Made by a program: the position numbers and the translations under genes. DNA of 64,000 nt from Rehaibacterium terrae. Its GTDB lineage: Bacteria > Pseudomonadota > Gammaproteobacteria > Xanthomonadales > Xanthomonadaceae. This document shows, in pieces, positions 22,477 to 49,414 of the stretch (within the stretch, counting starts at the first letter, position 1; every line of letters begins with the position of its first letter). The stretch lies in assembly GCF_014202935.1 (NCBI RefSeq), contig NZ_JACHHX010000006.1, positions 62,001 through 126,000 on the forward strand, written 5' to 3'. The notes beneath the pieces are model-generated. The model did not search any database. It saw only the letters and a list, made by a program, of their open reading frames with translations, and was not told where the DNA came from.

Positions 22477-22561
22477 TGGTGCGAAAGGAGAGACTCGAAC
22501 TCTCACGGGTTGCCCCACTGGAACCTAAATCCAGCGCGTCTACCAGTTCCGCCACTTTCGC
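22477..22561 (-). tRNA. tRNA-Leu(TAG)
   Basis: 85 nt class II tRNA with encoded CCA. Acceptor GCGAAAG/CTTTCGC, discriminator A, anticodon stem CTGGA/TCCAG with loop TTTAGGT (TAG), long variable arm. Last of a five-tRNA run read Pro-Arg-His-Lys-Leu. Confidence 0.98.
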
Positions 22562-22602
22562 CTTGCCGCGGGAAGTTCAAAACAGGTGCGGCTGGAAGGA
22601 TT

Positions 22603-22678
22603 TGGTGGGCCGTCTAGGATTCGAACCTAGGACCTACTGATTAAGAGTCAGCTGCTCTACCAACTGAGCTAACGGCCC
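22603..22678 (-). tRNA. tRNA-Lys(CTT)
   Basis: 76 nt with encoded CCA. Acceptor GGGCCGT/ACGGCCC, discriminator A, anticodon loop CTCTTAA (CTT), T loop TTCGAAT. Confidence 0.98.
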
Positions 22679-22733
22679 AAAACCTTTCCTGCCTCACGGC
22701 AGCGGACGCGCACATTATGCAGCATCCGGGAAC

Positions 22734-22809
22734 TGGGGTGGAAGACGGGGATCGAACCCGCGACACCTGGAGCCACAATCCAGTGCTCTACCACTGAGCT
22801 ACATCCACC
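22734..22809 (-). tRNA. tRNA-His(GTG)
   Basis: 76 nt including the extra 5' G(-1) opposite C73 that is the histidine identity element, with encoded CCA. Anticodon loop TTGTGGC contains GTG. The acceptor pairs GTGGATG with CTTCCAC except for a T-T mismatch at pair 6-67. Confidence 0.97.
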
Positions 22810-22826
22810 ATCGAAACTTTCGGAGC

Positions 22827-22903
22827 TGGCGCGCCCGACAGGACTCGAACCTGCAACCGTCGGCTTAGAAGGCCGATGCTCTATCCGGTTGAGCTACAGG
22901 CGC
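22827..22903 (-). tRNA. tRNA-Arg(TCT)
   Basis: 77 nt with encoded CCA. Acceptor GCGCCTG/CGGGCGC (with one G-T pair), discriminator G, anticodon loop CTTCTAA (TCT). It reads AGA/AGG codons, which are rare in a genome of this GC content. Confidence 0.98.
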
Positions 22904-22992
22904 GTCGGTCGAACTATACCGGCCTCCGGCCGCAGCCGACCGCGAGCACCCCGTCCCGAGCCGGCGACCCCACCCGCGGGAAGCGCGCAGTC

Positions 22993-23069
22993 TGGTCGGG
23001 GTAGAGGGATTCGAACCCCCGACGTCCAGCTCCCAAAGCTGGCGCTCTACCAGGCTGAGCTATACCCCG
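22993..23069 (-). tRNA. tRNA-Pro(TGG)
   Basis: 77 nt with encoded CCA. Acceptor CGGGGTA/TACCCCG, discriminator A, anticodon loop TTTGGGA (TGG). First gene of the five-tRNA run. Confidence 0.98.
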
Positions 23070-23281: not shown

Positions 23282-25282
23282 ATGATGGTCTTCAGTCCGC
23301 ACCGCGTCCGCCTCGTCCTCGTCCTGACCGCGATTTGTGCAGGCGCCGCGCTCGCCGGGGACGGCCCCGCCCCCGAGGATCTGGATCCGCGCACGCCCGC
23401 CTGCCAGGACTTCTACCAGCACGCCAACGGCGGCTGGCTGGCACGCACAGCGATTCCCGCCGGACGCGGCAGCTGGAGCCGTTTCGACGAACTCAACCAG
23501 CGCGCGCTGGAGCAGCAGCGCGCACTGCTCGATGCCGCCGCCGCCTCGCCTGCCGACGACACCGAGCGTCTGCTCGGCGACTTCTGGGCCAGCGGCCTGG
23601 ACGAAGCCGCCATCGAGGCCGCCGGTGCGCAGCCGCTGGCGCCGCTTCTGGCCCGCATCGACCGGGCCGGGCGCCCGCGCGACCTGCCGGCGCTGATCGC
23701 CGACCTGCATGCGCGCGGCATCCCGGTGCTGTTCAACTTCGGCGCCGACATCGACCTGCGCGATTTCGGTCGCCGCATCGCCTATGCCACCCAGGCCGGC
23801 CTCGGGCTGCCCGACCGCGACTATTACCTGCGCGACGACGAGGACGCGCGCGCGCTGCTCGGCCGCTACCGCGCCCACATCGAACGGCTGCTGGCGCTGA
23901 CAGGCACGCCGACGGGTGAACTGTCCACCCGCTCGGCGCAGGTGCTGGAGATCGAGATGCGGCTGGCCGCGGCCTCGCTCGGCCTGGTCGAACTGCGCGA
24001 TCCCTACCATGCCTACCGGCCGACGCCATTGCGCGAGCTGGACAGGCGCTATCCCGCACTGCGCCTGGCCGACTTCGCCCGCGCGCAGGGGCTGCGCCAG
24101 CTCGACAGCGTCTCGCTGGCCCACGAGCGCTTCTTCCAGGCCGCCAACACCCTGCTCGCCACGCTGCCGACGGCGCACTGGCAGGCCTATCTGCGCTTCC
24201 ACGTCGCCAACGCCCTGGCCCCGCACCTGTCGCAGCCGTTCCGCGACGCGCACCACGCGCTGTACGGCGAGCTGCTCGCCGGCCAGCCCGAACCGGCGCC
24301 GCGCTGGCGGCAGGTGCTCGCCACGCTCGATGCGGCGGTCGGCGACGCGCTCGGCCGCAAGTACGTCGAGCGGCATCTGCCGGAAGCGGCGCGCGCCGAG
24401 GCCGAAGCGGTCGTGATCGGTGTGCGCGACGCGCTGGCGCGGGCCATCGACACCGTCGACTGGCTCGGCGACGAAGCCAGGACCGCCGCGCGCGAGAAAC
24501 TCGCCACCCTGCGCGTGGAGGTCGGGGCGCCGACCCACGTCCACGACCACGCCGGACTGCGCTTCGACCGTCGCGACTATGCCGCCAACGTGCTCGCCGC
24601 CGCGCAGTGGCGCCATGCGCGCGAACTGGCCGGCATCGGCAGACAGGTGCCGCTGCAGTGGCGGGTGCCGCCGCATACGCCTGACATCGCCTACGATCTG
24701 GCGCTGAACCGCCTGACCGTGACCGCGGCGTTGCTGCAGCCGCCGGTCTTCCATGCCGGCGGCGAGACGGCGCTCAATCACGGTGCGCTCGGCACGCTCG
24801 CCGGCCAACAACTCACCCACGCTTTCGACGCCAAGGGCCGCACCATCGACGGCAGCGGCCGCTTCCGCGACTGGTGGAGCGCGGAGGACGCGCAGCGCTT
24901 CGAGGCGCGGGTCGCGCCGCTGGTGGCGCAGTACGACGGCTACCTCGCGCTCGGCCCGGTACGTGTCAACGGTCGCGTCACCCGCGACGAGAACATCGCC
25001 GATCTCGGCGGCGTCGAGCTGGCCCTCAGCGCCCTGCGCGCAGCCAGTGGCGACACGCTCGATGCCAGGCAGGCACAGCGCTTCTTCCTCGGCTACGCCA
25101 CCCTCTGGCAACGCAAGTACACCGAGGAGGAGCTCCGGCTGCGCCTGGCGACCGGCGTGCACGCACCGGCCAGGTTCCGCGTCAACGGCCCGCTCGCCAA
25201 CCTGCCCGCTTTCGCCGAAGCTTTCGGCTGCAGGGCCGGCCAACCGATGGTCAACCGCGCCGCTGTCGCGCTCTGGCGCTGA
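23282..25282 (+). CDS. M13-family (neprilysin-like) metallopeptidase homologue with lost zinc motif
   Basis: 666 residues with a signal peptide (VRLVLVLTAICAGAALAGD), hence probably periplasmic. The N-terminal DPRTPACQDFYQHANGGWLA and the C-terminal domain (ENIADLGGVELALSALR, ending ALW) are clearly M13. In the catalytic region the zinc motif HExxH is replaced: the segment reads LAGQQLTHAFDAKGR, so the first His and the catalytic Glu are both Gln (codons CAA CAA near 24807-24812). The NAYY substrate motif is also degraded to DIAYD. The fold seems kept and the reading frame is open. It is likely a pseudoenzyme with a binding or chaperone role, or a gene losing function. Confidence 0.85.
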   Translation: MMVFSPHRVRLVLVLTAICAGAALAGDGPAPEDLDPRTPACQDFYQHANGGWLARTAIPAGRGSWSRFDELNQRALEQQRALLDAAAASPADDTERLLGDFWASGLDEAAIEAAGAQPLAPLLARIDRAGRPRDLPALIADLHARGIPVLFNFGADIDLRDFGRRIAYATQAGLGLPDRDYYLRDDEDARALLGRYRAHIERLLALTGTPTGELSTRSAQVLEIEMRLAAASLGLVELRDPYHAYRPTPLRELDRRYPALRLADFARAQGLRQLDSVSLAHERFFQAANTLLATLPTAHWQAYLRFHVANALAPHLSQPFRDAHHALYGELLAGQPEPAPRWRQVLATLDAAVGDALGRKYVERHLPEAARAEAEAVVIGVRDALARAIDTVDWLGDEARTAAREKLATLRVEVGAPTHVHDHAGLRFDRRDYAANVLAAAQWRHARELAGIGRQVPLQWRVPPHTPDIAYDLALNRLTVTAALLQPPVFHAGGETALNHGALGTLAGQQLTHAFDAKGRTIDGSGRFRDWWSAEDAQRFEARVAPLVAQYDGYLALGPVRVNGRVTRDENIADLGGVELALSALRAASGDTLDARQAQRFFLGYATLWQRKYTEEELRLRLATGVHAPARFRVNGPLANLPAFAEAFGCRAGQPMVNRAAVALWR

Positions 25283-25380: not shown

Positions 25381-28233
25381 ATGGAAAACTTCGTCCCCGG
25401 CCAGCGCTGGCTGAGCACCACCGAACCCGAGCTCGGGCTGGGCACCGTCATGCGCCTGACCGGGCGCAGCGTGCAGATCGTGTTCACCGGTTCGGGCGTG
25501 GTGCGCCAATACGCCTTCGGCAGCGCGCCGCTGATGCGCGCCGCATTCCGTCCCGGTGACCGCATCCGTATCGATGGCGTCGAGACGGTCGTCGAGCGCG
25601 TGGAGGCCGAAGACGGCTTGCTGGTCTATGTCTGCGGTGCCGAACGCTATCCGGAAGGCATGCTCGATGCCCAGCAGCCGGTCTCGCAGGCCGACACCCG
25701 CCTGCTCGCCGGCCGCGTCGACCGCAGCGACCAGTTCGACTTCCGCTACGAACTGCTGCAACGTCGCGCCGCTGCCCGCGCCCATCCCGGCTGGGGCCTG
25801 CTCGGCGCGCGCGTCGACCTGATCCCGCACCAGCTCCGCGTCGCCGAAATCGCCGCCCAGCGCCGCCCGCCACGACTGCTGCTGGCGGACGAAGTCGGCC
25901 TGGGCAAGACCATCGAGGCCTGCCTGATCGTCGCCCAGCAGCTTGCCGCCGGCCGCGCCCGCCGCGTGCTGGTGCTGGTGCCCGAGAGCCTGGTCAACCA
26001 GTGGTTCGTCGAACTGCTGCGCCGCTTCAACCTCGCCTTCGCGATCTACGACGAGGAGCGCTGCGAATCGCTGGAACTGACCGAGCCGCACCGGAATCCG
26101 TTCGAGGACGAGCAGTGCGTGATCGCCAGCACCGACTGGCTGGCGCGCAACGACAAGCGCGCGCGCCAGGCGCTGGCCGCGCAGTGGGACATGCTGCTGG
26201 TCGACGAGGCGCACCACCTGGTCTGGACACCCGACTTCGCCAGCCCCGACTACCGGCTGGTCGAGGCGCTGGCGGCGAAGACGCCCGGCCTGCTGCTGCT
26301 CACCGCCACCCCCGAACAGCTCGGCCTGGGCGGCCATTTCGCCCGTCTGCGCCTGCTCGACCCGGCGCGCTACCACAGCCTCACCGCCTTCGAGGCGGAA
26401 ACGCGCCGCTACCAGCGGCTGTCGCGGGTCGTCGAGGCACTGCAGGCCGGCGCGCCGCTGTCGCTGGCCGAAACCGAGGCGCTCGGCGAGCTGTTCGAAG
26501 GCGAGGCCGACACCCTGCCCGCGCTGCTCGGCGCGATCGCCCAGGGTGACGATGGCGCCCGCGCGCGCCTGATCGACGCCCTGATCGACCGCCACGGCAC
26601 CGGCCGGGTGATGATCCGCAATCGCCGCGCGGCGGTCGGCGGCTTCCCGCGGCGGGTCAAGCACATCACCGTCCTCGACGGCAACACCGCGAGCGACCCG
26701 ACCCTGCACGGCCGCCTGCTGGCCGAGTTCCTGCATGACGTCGGCGAGCAGGAAGCCGAGCCCGAGCACGACTACACCCGCGACCCGCGCATGGACTGGC
26801 TGCTGGCGCTGCTCGACCGCATCGCTCCGGCCAAGGCCCTGCTGCTGTGCCGTTCGCGCGCCAAGGTGCAGGCGCTGGAGGAGGCGCTGCGGCTGCGCAG
26901 CGGCGTGAAGGCCGCGCGCTTCCACGAGGACATGAGCCTGCTGCAACGCGACCGCAATGCCGCCTGGTTCGCCGACCCGGAGGGTGCGCGCCTGCTGATC
27001 GCCAGCGAGATCGGCGCCGAGGGCCGCAACTTCCAGTTCGCCCAGCACCTGATCCTGTGGGATCTGCCGCTCGACCCGGACATGCTCGAACAGCGCATCG
27101 GCCGGCTCGACCGCATCGGCCAGCGCGGCGACGTCAACATCCACGTCCAGGCGGTGGCCGGCAGCCCGCAGGAGACGCTGCTGCGCTGGTACGACGAAGG
27201 GCTGGATGCGTTCTCGCAGATCCTGGCCGACGGTCGCGAACTGCTGCGCTGTTTCGGCGACGACGTGGTGGCGCTGGCCATCGGCGAAGCCTCGCCGCGG
27301 CGCGATGCCGACATCCACGCCCTGCTCGCCCGCAGCCGCGAAGTCCATGCCGAACTGGCGCGGCTGATCGCCGAAGGCCGCGACCGCCTGCTGGAACTCG
27401 GCAGCCAGCGCGGCGCCGGCGAGAGCGAGCTGCTCGCCGCGCTCCTGGCCGACGACCAACGCGCCGCACAGGACGACTTCCCGTTGCGGCTGCTCGAACG
27501 GATCGGCGTGCATCACGAGGAGCTTGGCGGCGGCCTGTGGCTGCTCGATCCCGAGCACATCGCCGTCGACGGCTTCGACGAGTTCAAGAACGGCCCGCGG
27601 CCGGCCACCTTCGACCGCGCCACCGCTCTGGCACGCGACGACGCGCTCTACCTGCGCGACGACCACCCGCTGCTGCTGTCGGTCGGCGAACTGCTGCTGT
27701 CCGGCGAAACCGGCAATGCCGCCTTCCTGATCGACGAGCTGCCGCCGCGCACGGTGATCCTCGAAGCCGTGTTCGTACTCGAATGCGTCGCCCGCCGCGC
27801 ACTCAACGCCGAGCGATTCCTGCCGCCGACACCGCTGCGGGTGGCCATCGACACCCGCCTGCAGCCGCGCAGCGACTTTACGCCCAGCGAACGCGCCCGC
27901 CTGCGTGCCGGCGAGCGCCAGATCGACCTGTCACCGATGCGGAAAGTACTGGCCACGCTGGTGCCGCCGATGCTGGAACGCGCGCGCCAAGAGGCGGAGA
28001 GCCGGGCCGCAGCCCGGATCGCCGACGCGGTCGCGGCGGCGGACTCGCTGCTCGGACGCGAGATCGTGCGCCTGGAAGCACTGGCCCGGATCAACCCGGC
28101 GGTGCGCCAGGAGGAAGTCGCCCGTCTGCGCGAGGAGCGCGAGCGGCTGGTCGAGGTCCTGCCCGGCGCCCGTCCGCGCCTGGACGCCCTGCGCCTGGTC
28201 GCCAGCCCGGACTTCCTGTCGCTGCGGCGGTAG
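25381..28233 (+). CDS. rapA: RNA polymerase-associated protein RapA (Snf2-family ATPase)
   Basis: 950 residues, close to the 968 of E. coli. N-terminal Tudor-like domains (MENFVPGQRWLSTTEPELGLG) precede the Snf2 motor: Walker A LADEVGLGKTIEA, DEAHHLVW box, LLLTATP, and the helicase C-terminal lobe with SEIGAEGRNFQFA and QRIGRLDRIGQ. The long RapA-specific C-terminal region follows. It recycles RNA polymerase stalled after transcription. ATG 25381 is chosen; the upstream in-frame extension reads through the end of the M13-like gene out of frame. Confidence 0.95.
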   Translation: MENFVPGQRWLSTTEPELGLGTVMRLTGRSVQIVFTGSGVVRQYAFGSAPLMRAAFRPGDRIRIDGVETVVERVEAEDGLLVYVCGAERYPEGMLDAQQPVSQADTRLLAGRVDRSDQFDFRYELLQRRAAARAHPGWGLLGARVDLIPHQLRVAEIAAQRRPPRLLLADEVGLGKTIEACLIVAQQLAAGRARRVLVLVPESLVNQWFVELLRRFNLAFAIYDEERCESLELTEPHRNPFEDEQCVIASTDWLARNDKRARQALAAQWDMLLVDEAHHLVWTPDFASPDYRLVEALAAKTPGLLLLTATPEQLGLGGHFARLRLLDPARYHSLTAFEAETRRYQRLSRVVEALQAGAPLSLAETEALGELFEGEADTLPALLGAIAQGDDGARARLIDALIDRHGTGRVMIRNRRAAVGGFPRRVKHITVLDGNTASDPTLHGRLLAEFLHDVGEQEAEPEHDYTRDPRMDWLLALLDRIAPAKALLLCRSRAKVQALEEALRLRSGVKAARFHEDMSLLQRDRNAAWFADPEGARLLIASEIGAEGRNFQFAQHLILWDLPLDPDMLEQRIGRLDRIGQRGDVNIHVQAVAGSPQETLLRWYDEGLDAFSQILADGRELLRCFGDDVVALAIGEASPRRDADIHALLARSREVHAELARLIAEGRDRLLELGSQRGAGESELLAALLADDQRAAQDDFPLRLLERIGVHHEELGGGLWLLDPEHIAVDGFDEFKNGPRPATFDRATALARDDALYLRDDHPLLLSVGELLLSGETGNAAFLIDELPPRTVILEAVFVLECVARRALNAERFLPPTPLRVAIDTRLQPRSDFTPSERARLRAGERQIDLSPMRKVLATLVPPMLERARQEAESRAAARIADAVAAADSLLGREIVRLEALARINPAVRQEEVARLREERERLVEVLPGARPRLDALRLVASPDFLSLRR

Positions 28234-46532: not shown

Positions 46533-47516
46533 TTACGGGCGGCGGGCCAGCTCGGCCTCGTCGCGCGCCTTGGGCATCAGGTCCTGCTTGGTGACGCCCA
46601 GCCACAGCAGCACCGGGGTGGCGTAGAAGATCGTCGACAGGGTGCCGACCACGATGCCGACGATCAGCGCCAGCGAGAAGCCTTCCAGCGTGGGGCCGCC
46701 GAACAGGTACAGCGCCACTGCGGTGAGCAGGGTCGTCACCGAGGTCATGATCGTGCGCGACAGGGTGCTGTTGATGGCCTTGTTCAGCACCTGCACGCTG
46801 TCCGAGGCGCGGGTCGAGCGGAACAGTTCGCGCACGCGGTCGAACACCACGATCTTGTCGTTCACCGAGTAGCCGTCGACCGCCAGGATCGCCGCCAGCA
46901 CGGCCAGATCGAAGTCCAGGCCCATGATCGCGAAGAAGCCCAGCGTCACCACCACGTCGTGGATTTCGCCGATCACCGTGGCGAGGGCGAACTTCCACTC
47001 GAAGCGCATGGCGATGTAGATCATGATGCCGGTGAGCACCACGAACACCGCGACGATGCCGTTGTAGGCCAGCTCGCGGCCGACCTGCGGACCGACGTAC
47101 TCGCTGCGCTTGATGGTGACCTCGTGGCCGCCGGCGCGAAGTGTGTCCAGCACCAATTGGCCGACCGCGGCGTTGCGCGCATCGATGCTGGTCTCTTCGT
47201 CCTCGGTCAGCAGTTCCTCGACCGCCGCCGCCGAATGCTCCGGCGACAGCCGGATGGCGAAGCTGGTCGAATCGAAGCGCTGCACGAGGGGATTGCGGAA
47301 GCCGCCGGCCTGCAGCGCATCCACCACCTCGGACTGCTCGACCGGCTTGTCGTACACCACCTCGACCAAGGTGCCGCCGGTGAAATCCAGCGCCAGGTTC
47401 AGGCCTTTGGTGGCGATCGCCACGATCGAGCCGAGCATCAGCAACAGGGCGATCGTCACCGACACCCGGCGGATGCCCATGAAGTTGACGTTGCTGTTCG
47501 GATTGAAGAATTCCAT
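46533..47516 (-). CDS. secF: Protein translocase subunit SecF
   Basis: 327-residue inner-membrane RND-type protein with six transmembrane helices and a short periplasmic P1-like domain. LALDFTGGTLVEVVYDKPV near residue 50 and the C-terminal YSVNDKIVVFDRVRE match SecF. With SecD and YajC it pulls preproteins through SecYEG using the proton motive force. It lies 23 bases after secD. Confidence 0.96.
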   Translation of the reverse strand: MEFFNPNSNVNFMGIRRVSVTIALLLMLGSIVAIATKGLNLALDFTGGTLVEVVYDKPVEQSEVVDALQAGGFRNPLVQRFDSTSFAIRLSPEHSAAAVEELLTEDEETSIDARNAAVGQLVLDTLRAGGHEVTIKRSEYVGPQVGRELAYNGIVAVFVVLTGIMIYIAMRFEWKFALATVIGEIHDVVVTLGFFAIMGLDFDLAVLAAILAVDGYSVNDKIVVFDRVRELFRSTRASDSVQVLNKAINSTLSRTIMTSVTTLLTAVALYLFGGPTLEGFSLALIVGIVVGTLSTIFYATPVLLWLGVTKQDLMPKARDEAELARRP

Positions 47517-47539
47517 CTGGGTCGTCTCCGATCAGCCCG

Positions 47540-49414
47540 TCAGACCGACACGGTCTTGACGCGGCGGCCGTGGCCGTAGATCGCCGTGGCGATGGCGCGG
47601 CTCACGACGACGGAAGTGAACATCGAGGTCAGCACGCCGAAGAACAGCACCACGGCGAAGCCGCGGATCGGCCCGGTGCCGAACGAGAACAGGGCCATGG
47701 CGGCGATCACCTTGGTGACGTTGGAATCGAGGATGACCGTCCAGGCGCGCTCGTAGCCGGCCTTGATGCTGGCCACCGGCGTGTTGCCCATGCGCAGCTC
47801 CTCGCGGATGCGTTCGCAGATCAGCACGTTGCCGTCGATCGCCATGCCCAGGGTGAGCACGATGCCGGCGATGCCGGGCATGGTCAGGGTGGCGTCGATG
47901 AAGCTCAGCGCGGCACAGAGCAGGGTCAGGTTGGTGAACAGCGCCACCACCGAGATCAGGCCGAACAGCTTGTAGTAGACGATCATCAGCGCGCACACCA
48001 GCAGGAAGCCCATCGTGATCGCCATGGCGCCGGCCTCGATGTTCTCCTTGCCCAGCGACGGGCCGATCACGCGCTCCTCGACGATGTCCACCGGCGCGGC
48101 CAGCGAGCCGGCGCGCAGCAGCAGGGCCAGCTCGGCGGCCTCGCGCGGGCTCTCCAGACCGGTGGTCTGGAAGCGCTTGCCGAACACGCCGCGGATGGTG
48201 GCGACCGAGATGACCTCCTCGGTGACGCGGGTGGTGCGCACCTCCTGGCCGTCGACGATGCGGACCTCGGGCGTGCGCTCGATGAACACGACCGCCATGC
48301 CGCGACCGACGTTCTCCCGGGTGAACTCCAGCATGCGCTGGCCGCCGACGTTGTTCAGCGTCACCGAGACCATCGGCGAACCGTCCTGCGGATCGAAGCC
48401 GGAGCGGGCGTCGACCAGCTGATCGCCGGAGGCGATGATGCGCCGCGACAGCAGCACCGGGATCGGCCGGCCGTCGGCGCCGGTGCGACGCTGGTAGTAA
48501 AGACGCGCGTCGGGCGGCACGCGGCCGGTCTGGGCGGCGGCATAGGCGTCGCCGTCGACCACGGCGCGGTACTCCAGGGTGGCGGTGGCGCCGAGCACCT
48601 TCTTGGCCTGTGCGGTGTCCTGCACGCCGGGCAACTGCACCACGATCCGGTTGGCACCCTGGCGCTGGATGATCGGCTCGGCCACACCCAGCTCGTTGAT
48701 GCGGTTGCGCAGGGTACCGACGTTCTGCTCGATGGCGTTGTCGATGATGGTCTTGAGCTCGGCCTCGCTGATGCGCGCCACCAGGGCCGCCCCCTCCTCG
48801 GTCGTCGTGGTCTGCAGCAGCAGCTCGGGCAGGTCGCGGGCGATCAGGCTGCGGGCACGGTCGAGGTCGGCGGCGTCGCGCAGCTGGATCAGGATGCCGT
48901 TCGGACCGCGGTTGACCGCCGTATAAGGCACGCGGTTGTCGCGCAGCAGCGCGCGGATGTCGTCGGCGAAGCCGTTCTCGCGCTGTTCCAGCGCGGCGCG
49001 CTGGTCGACCTCCATCAGGAAATGCACGCCGCCCTGCAGGTCCAGGCCGAGCAGCATCGGCGTGGCGCGAATGGCGACCAGCCAGTCCGGCACGGTCGAG
49101 GCGAGGTTGAGCGCCACCGTGTAGCGGTTGCCCAGCTCCTCGCGGATCAGGTCGGCGGCCCGCAGCTGGGTGTCGGGATGATCCAGCCGCACCAGCAGGC
49201 TGTCCGGACCGACATCGATCCTCTTGGGCGTCAGCCCGGCGCGTTCCAGCACGCCCTGCACGCGCTCCTTCAGCGCCTCGTCGACGACCGCGCCGCGGTT
49301 GGGCGTGATCTGGACCGCGGGATCCTGCGGATAGATGTTGGGGATGGCGTAGACGATGCTGACCAGGACGACCAGCACGACCAGTGCGTACTTCCAGCGG
49401 GGAAACTCGAGCAT
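47540..49414 (-). CDS. secD: Protein translocase subunit SecD
   Basis: 624 residues. The N-terminal helix is followed by a large periplasmic domain with LGLDLQGGVHFLMEVD, then six helices with GIVLTLGMAIDGNVLICERIREELR, which contains the conserved residues for proton coupling. Length is close to E. coli SecD (615). Second gene of yajC-secD-secF. Confidence 0.97.
   Translation of the reverse strand: MLEFPRWKYALVVLVVLVSIVYAIPNIYPQDPAVQITPNRGAVVDEALKERVQGVLERAGLTPKRIDVGPDSLLVRLDHPDTQLRAADLIREELGNRYTVALNLASTVPDWLVAIRATPMLLGLDLQGGVHFLMEVDQRAALEQRENGFADDIRALLRDNRVPYTAVNRGPNGILIQLRDAADLDRARSLIARDLPELLLQTTTTEEGAALVARISEAELKTIIDNAIEQNVGTLRNRINELGVAEPIIQRQGANRIVVQLPGVQDTAQAKKVLGATATLEYRAVVDGDAYAAAQTGRVPPDARLYYQRRTGADGRPIPVLLSRRIIASGDQLVDARSGFDPQDGSPMVSVTLNNVGGQRMLEFTRENVGRGMAVVFIERTPEVRIVDGQEVRTTRVTEEVISVATIRGVFGKRFQTTGLESPREAAELALLLRAGSLAAPVDIVEERVIGPSLGKENIEAGAMAITMGFLLVCALMIVYYKLFGLISVVALFTNLTLLCAALSFIDATLTMPGIAGIVLTLGMAIDGNVLICERIREELRMGNTPVASIKAGYERAWTVILDSNVTKVIAAMALFSFGTGPIRGFAVVLFFGVLTSMFTSVVVSRAIATAIYGHGRRVKTVSV

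Follow-up and report, generated by a model that had tools for sequence, protein, structure and literature searches.

A clade of M13 metallopeptidase homologues with mostly broken zinc sites, probably of the Lysobacteraceae, and a probable exported pseudopeptidase in Rehaibacterium terrae

In a 64,000-nucleotide stretch of the Rehaibacterium terrae genome, here called the window, a gene on the plus strand at 23285..25282 encodes a homologue of the M13 metallopeptidases in which both the zinc motif and the substrate motif are altered. The gene is a member of a supported clade of paralogues, which we call M13P, and copies in this clade with a broken zinc site are under strong purifying selection. 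We propose that the encoded protein is an exported, non-catalytic pseudopeptidase, most likely acting as a partner that binds active M13 paralogues, a statement to which, taken whole, we give a probability of about 0.55. Its parts differ in strength, as follows. That the gene is maintained for a non-catalytic function is highly probable; the partner mechanism, which is argued from analogy, is tentative.

The identification of the gene draws on its open frame, on Pfam matches, on matches to solved M13 structures and on an AlphaFold2 model. The frame from the ATG at 23285 comprises 665 residues and a stop, as the first-pass annotation, which counted 666 codons, had described. A second possible start is the ATG at 23282, giving an N-terminal MM, and the frame lies within a 797-residue ORF that begins at 22889 and extends across part of a cluster of five tRNA genes (Leu, Lys, His, Arg and Pro; 22477..23069, minus strand) between tig and M13P. 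It is sensible to place the start at 23282 or 23285 rather than at 22889. GC at the three codon positions of the frame, 0.785/0.513/0.890, is gene-like and resembles that of tig and rapA. Both domains of family M13 exceed the curated Pfam scores: M13_N (PF05649) at 334.9 bits (E 1.1e-99, cut-off 32) and M13 (PF01431) at 155.4 bits (E 2e-45, cut-off 24.5). The protein also matches 14 distinct solved M13 sequences, TfPepO 9eyg being the best. On inspection of the sequence, residues 1–24 (23285..23356, plus strand) form a signal-peptide-like stretch ending in ALA, with no lipobox apparent by eye, and the C-terminal W664 is present; the N-terminal domain, signal peptide and C-terminal Trp had been listed as retained, and the domain and the Trp are in place together with this signal-like start. 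A scan of the window for promoters and terminators brought up a single promoter-like site, on the minus strand, and was otherwise uninformative.

Active M13 enzymes carry HExxH, which supplies two zinc-binding His and the catalytic Glu, a third zinc ligand in ENxxD, and a VNAxx or NAYY substrate motif. In the window protein, sequence, alignment and model agree that HExxH is replaced by QQLTH (residues 508–512; 24806..24820, plus strand; codons CAA CAA CTC ACC CAC), with the counterparts of neprilysin His583 and Glu584 lost and that of His587 kept. The alignment places DIAY (residues 467–470; 24683..24694, plus strand), within PDIAY, at the position of NAYY, whose Asn542-Ala543 pair in neprilysin is substrate-binding. 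The third-ligand segment is intact: ENIAD (residues 569–573; 24989..25003, plus strand) keeps the third ligand, Glu646, and the second-sphere Asp650 in sequence, alignment and model. Thus, the loss of HExxH and NAYY and the survival of ENIADLGG (E569, D573), all reported in the first-pass annotation, stand as described. Functional roles are further ascribed to His711 and Arg717 of neprilysin, and sequence and alignment find both counterparts in an H...R segment (residues 626–632; 25160..25180, plus strand). The residues retained are His512, Glu569, Asp573, His626 and Arg632.

The roles of His583, His587, Glu646, Glu584 and Asn542 are taken from excerpts of PMC2259306. Read in these terms, QQxxH removes one of the three zinc ligands together with the catalytic Glu, and DIAY removes the substrate-positioning Asn-Ala. 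Without the Glu and one ligand, the window protein therefore cannot use the M13 mechanism. In PepS, an M13 enzyme, mutation of the HExxH Glu or of the third-ligand Glu abolished activity, according to the portion of PMC4701951 drawn on here. Drosophila Nepl proteins are classed as pseudopeptidases, in the excerpted text of PMC8223033, by the absence of at least one among HExxH, ENIAD, NAY/FY and CxxW; two of the three motifs checked in the window protein are lost.

The AlphaFold2 model of the window protein, built on 58 aligned sequences, has a mean pLDDT of 94.0 and a pTM of 0.90, residues 1–24 being the only segment of low confidence. It places QQLTH in a helix of residues 495–513 and ENIAD in a helix of residues 567–587. 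A VIA search returned M13 structures first, the top 15 with Z scores from 45.7 to 27.6 and the next row at 6.2; the match to TfPepO 9eyg (Z 45.7) has 30% identity over 639 aligned residues. An Arenimonas fontis copy with a deleted hairpin is modelled with a pLDDT of 92.5 and a pTM of 0.89. The alignments behind these models consist mostly of active homologues, and the models speak for a compatible fold, not for an empty zinc site. Structure modelling, which had been suggested as a check for an empty site, bears out the M13 fold and does not tell whether zinc is bound.

The copy most similar to the window gene belongs to another genus (genome G011, genus group g12), with 68.8% identity in its middle piece and about 57–59% in its C-terminal piece. 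It has DIGY at the NAYY position, GQQLTH at the zinc motif and Gly at the third-ligand position. A base-calling error at the HE codons is ruled out by the same GQQLTH in this second genus; a close homologue in a related genus thus shares QQLTH, a point the first-pass annotation had left for checking. In the G011 copy (L036 3275-5197) the homologous reading changes frame twice, and a frame of 726 codons is open across it; this copy is a broken gene or an assembly error. A search for an intact second M13 gene, also advised, found two. The R. terrae genome (2.89 Mb, 34 contigs) carries them in tandem, with intact motifs, on another contig than M13P (C10:44398-46329 and 46667-48601).

Relatives were gathered from one genome per genus, from wider draws within the family and from named genomes. 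Full-length matches, covering at least 80% of the query with no internal stop, numbered 263, of which 234 rows were left once duplicates and copies contained in others had been taken out; partial or split copies, such as that of G011 and a truncated one (L196), stand outside the 93 M13P rows described below. Sampling was uneven, since loci were chosen from best-scoring matches: genus group g17 (21 rows) and g61 (16 rows), which we take to be Arenimonas, are over-represented, and the contig scan of named genomes covered the best 80 of 583. Outside the family, a class-wide search of 274 genomes showed two matches, each with an intact HExxH; the search was limited to E <= 1e-130, at which absence of M13P elsewhere is not proven. 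A search of plasmid proteins with the window protein returned only matches under 60% identity.

When the motif columns are left out of the tree, the window gene falls in the 93-row M13P clade (SH-aLRT 100, FastTree support 0.997, obtained by quick methods with no bootstrap); an earlier tree, also without motif columns, had placed it in a 58-row clade with SH-aLRT 99. We infer that the host family is Lysobacteraceae because one of the proteins, from genome G099, is 100% identical to that of A. fontis, and named Lysobacteraceae records also carry the gene. Among 36 family genomes sampled one per genus (G000-G035), 32 have a full-length M13P. The other four are G011, with its split copy, and G004, G007 and G023, of which G007 (72%) and G023 (89%) are incomplete genomes; the single G023 match was left out of the sequence set.

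The picture of a single altered enzyme, as first drawn, needs correction: the window gene is one member of a clade of paralogues, in which the site was lost by many routes, QQ among them. With motif columns assigned by automatic alignment, the numbers of the 93 M13P rows that keep each residue are as follows: Asn542, 3; Ala543, 3; His583, 66; Glu584, 67; His587, 29; Glu646, 58; Asp650, 93; His711, 64; Arg717, 93. No zinc ligand is left in 18 rows, one in 14, two in 44 and three in 17. All 17 three-ligand rows also have the Glu and are spread over 15 of 47 genus groups, and a single row (L005, genus group g36) has the complete catalytic set including the Asn. Outside the clade, both His, the Glu and the third ligand are present in 141/141 M13 rows (30/30 with the same family code and 111/111 others, the latter including 7 from named Lysobacteraceae records), which puts the changes in the window gene beyond chance. 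Asn542 is likewise found in all 111 others and in 29 of the 30, the one non-clade exception, L080, having Asp at that column beside a gap. A count of other conserved columns weighs against the reading proposed here. Of 84 columns conserved in at least 95% of the 141 other M13s, an unweighted count finds only 32 kept in at least 90% of M13P rows, 27 in 50–90% and 25 in fewer than 50%. A Lys/Arg-rich stretch following the signal-like start (at least six K/R within residues 19–50) occurs in 17 of 93 M13P proteins and 1 of 37 active proteins of the same family, and is absent from the window protein.

On a 102-row tree, the minimum number of changes is 1 for Asn542, 3 for Ala543, 10 for His583, 7 for Glu584, 8 for His587, 14 for Glu646 and 18 for His711, counts that do not separate loss from gain. 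These figures indicate a single change of the substrate-binding Asn in M13P against repeated changes of the zinc ligands, and that in the lineage of the window gene NAYY was lost before the zinc site. Two species of genus group g14 differ at the zinc motif, one (L204) with QQISH and QNVAD and the other (L026) with HELSR and ESAID, which is a recent step of degeneration. All 17 copies retrieved from the Arenimonas group have QQ, followed by a deletion of about 14 residues, and have the third ligand replaced by Gln or Met; copies lacking all three zinc ligands in this group are L107 12397-14280, L184-L198, L200 and L201. On the tree the window gene stands apart from the Arenimonas group, and QQ may therefore have arisen more than once; QQISH in the g14 copy is a further case.

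Selection was estimated with a custom pairwise codon model (GY94 type, F3x4). Across 17 within-genus M13P pairs, omega ranges from 0.019 to 0.141 and omega = 1 is rejected in each (likelihood-ratio statistic at least 149); at least one zinc ligand is missing in 16 of these 17. Five pairs of the Arenimonas group give 0.050–0.099, a g23 pair with RGLMG at the zinc motif gives 0.055, and the one ligand-keeping pair tested, L007/L068, gives 0.067. Ten pairs allow the same estimate for a portion of the adjacent active M13 and give 0.014–0.153; in at least one of them, L058/L070 (63% identity), the active copies may be other than orthologues. Conservation in the zinc-broken relatives is as tight as in the active genes beside them, and selection therefore acts on something other than the zinc site: the fold, the surface or the cavity. 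For the window gene itself, the comparison with G011 gives a dN of 0.207 in the middle piece and 0.318 in the C-terminal piece, against 0.191 for an active M13 and 0.202 for rapA in the same two genomes. Omega = 1 is again rejected (statistics 146 and 153), with dS saturated and no usable omega for the gene's own branch, and the faster C-terminal piece may allow some relaxation. The dN/dS computation that had been called for thus comes out on the side of maintenance by selection, both for the zinc-broken members and, within the limit of saturated dS, for the window gene.

Among the 84 rows whose upstream sequence covers 400 bases or more, 62 have an active-type M13 gene that ends just upstream of M13P in the same orientation; by genus group the figure is 32 of 43. 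In the window genome and in 11 of the 43 groups there is no active M13 directly upstream. Downstream of M13P in the window, 98 bases after its stop, lies a rapA-like helicase gene (25381..28233, plus strand). The same neighbour is found in g10, g19, g33, g36 (after 1 kb), g59, the Arenimonas group and G011; the flanks are short, and further rapA-adjacent cases may be missed. This recurring M13P-rapA neighbourhood supports orthology. Two active-type M13 genes and rapA also lie near each other in Lysobacteraceae bacterium PS02065 (L110 12066-15085), and no full-length M13P was found there between them.

The proposed mechanism is as follows. The window protein would be exported with an M13 fold and would cleave no peptide by the M13 mechanism. 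The closed two-domain shell of M13 would be kept, and its cavity or outer surface would serve to bind a protein or peptide. As partner, the active M13 paralogue, whose gene usually lies just upstream, is the best candidate; the window protein might assist or restrain it as a non-catalytic subunit, in the way alpha-MPP acts on beta-MPP in family M16. The role of partner or regulator seems likeliest because M13P adjoins active M13 genes and because of the analogy with M16 pairs; the separation of M13P from the active M13s in the window genome counts against it. That separation also favours a stand-alone periplasmic binding protein or chaperone, whose M13 cavity would bind peptides with no active M13 partner, a possibility we regard as doubtful but worth keeping in view. 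It fits the invariance of the Asp650 and Arg717 counterparts in all 93 rows, and the want of an obvious lipobox in the window protein, a pattern present in 25 of 37 active proteins of the same family and 9 of 93 M13P proteins (a weak comparison, as starts were guessed). However, adjacency to active M13 genes in most genus groups points to a shared role, and the loss of the substrate-positioning Asn-Ala in nearly all rows disfavours ordinary substrate binding. Somewhat less probable again is an origin through altered specificity, in which members lacking NAYY and keeping HExxH with its Glu would remain active peptidases, with catalysis lost in some lineages only, that of the window gene included. 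Some members of the clade may be enzymes, given the 17 rows with three ligands and the Glu, among them the one complete set, and the equally low omega of the L007/L068 pair is in accord with this. Against it, omega is similarly low and the neighbourhood the same with or without the ligands, as if the zinc site were not selected; moreover, this origin concerns the clade, and the window gene would end in the same non-catalytic state.

Simple decay, in which an enzyme made redundant by two active M13s lost its zinc site on the way to gene loss, is most improbable. It would draw on those two intact genes, on the G011 copy broken over two frames, on the faster C-terminal piece and on the four one-per-genus genomes without a full-length row. 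It is rejected by the purifying selection in zinc-broken relatives, the comparison with G011 and the full-length copies in the other 32 genomes; the window gene also keeps a full open frame with gene-like GC, and its middle piece has a dN about equal to those of the active M13 and rapA. Sister copies with HExxH alongside relaxed selection would be the mark of such decay; HExxH survives in some distant members, and no tested pair is relaxed. The suggestion in the first-pass annotation that the gene is under selection for a non-catalytic function thus survives in part: given a broken zinc site in an intact frame, a maintained role fits much better than decay. Hydrolysis through another metal site, or by a metal-free mechanism, at QQxxH...E is the least probable reading of all. 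His512, Glu569, Asp573 and Arg632 remain and might serve it, but the site has lost the catalytic Glu and one ligand, and Arenimonas-group orthologues lacking all three ligands show no relaxed selection.

Bacterial M13 peptidases such as PepO, Zmp1, PepS and TfPepO (9eyg) share whole-length homology and fold with the window protein, which differs from them in the replacement of a zinc ligand, the catalytic Glu and NAYY. Catalytically dead M13s are already described in insects, as far as excerpts of PMC2259306, PMC8223033 and PMC11266112 go. According to these, 21 Drosophila Nepl genes are predicted to be inactive (PMC8223033), and Gone early has an EAxxD motif and no third ligand (PMC11266112). 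Like M13P, these proteins conserve the M13 fold and have lost at least one catalytic motif; they are animal lineages, whereas M13P is probably a separate, bacterial clade, tied to tandem active M13 genes. A parallel to the proposed arrangement is found in alpha-MPP and in the two-gene pairs of bacterial M16B, in which, by the excerpted account in PMC11266112, an inactive paralogue is encoded beside an active one. The M16 pairs belong to another family; for M13P, the pairing with active M13s is one of gene adjacency. In the text excerpted from a 2008 survey (PMC2259306), 30 sequences are altered at key positions, rat Kell being the only one among them that does not come from an invertebrate, and the corresponding text of a 2024 review (PMC11266112) names for M13 only Gone early. 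Our search of openly licensed papers found no description of a bacterial M13 pseudopeptidase clade, and none on Arenimonas and M13.

It is tempting to go further and propose a near-universal Lysobacteraceae M13 pseudopeptidase, fixed as the non-catalytic subunit of tandem M13s, in which the zinc site was lost independently many times with the function kept. This broader proposal is speculative, and we think it unlikely as it stands; if true, it would amount to a bacterial neprilysin pair with one active and one dead subunit. For the annotation of the family, the clade carries a warning, namely that homology alone is insufficient to name M13P-type proteins metalloendopeptidases. The M13P clade, in which one active site was lost repeatedly under purifying selection, grades naturally from intact through half-lost to fully lost sites on a constant fold, and with it the function of the M13 fold without catalysis becomes testable in culturable bacteria.
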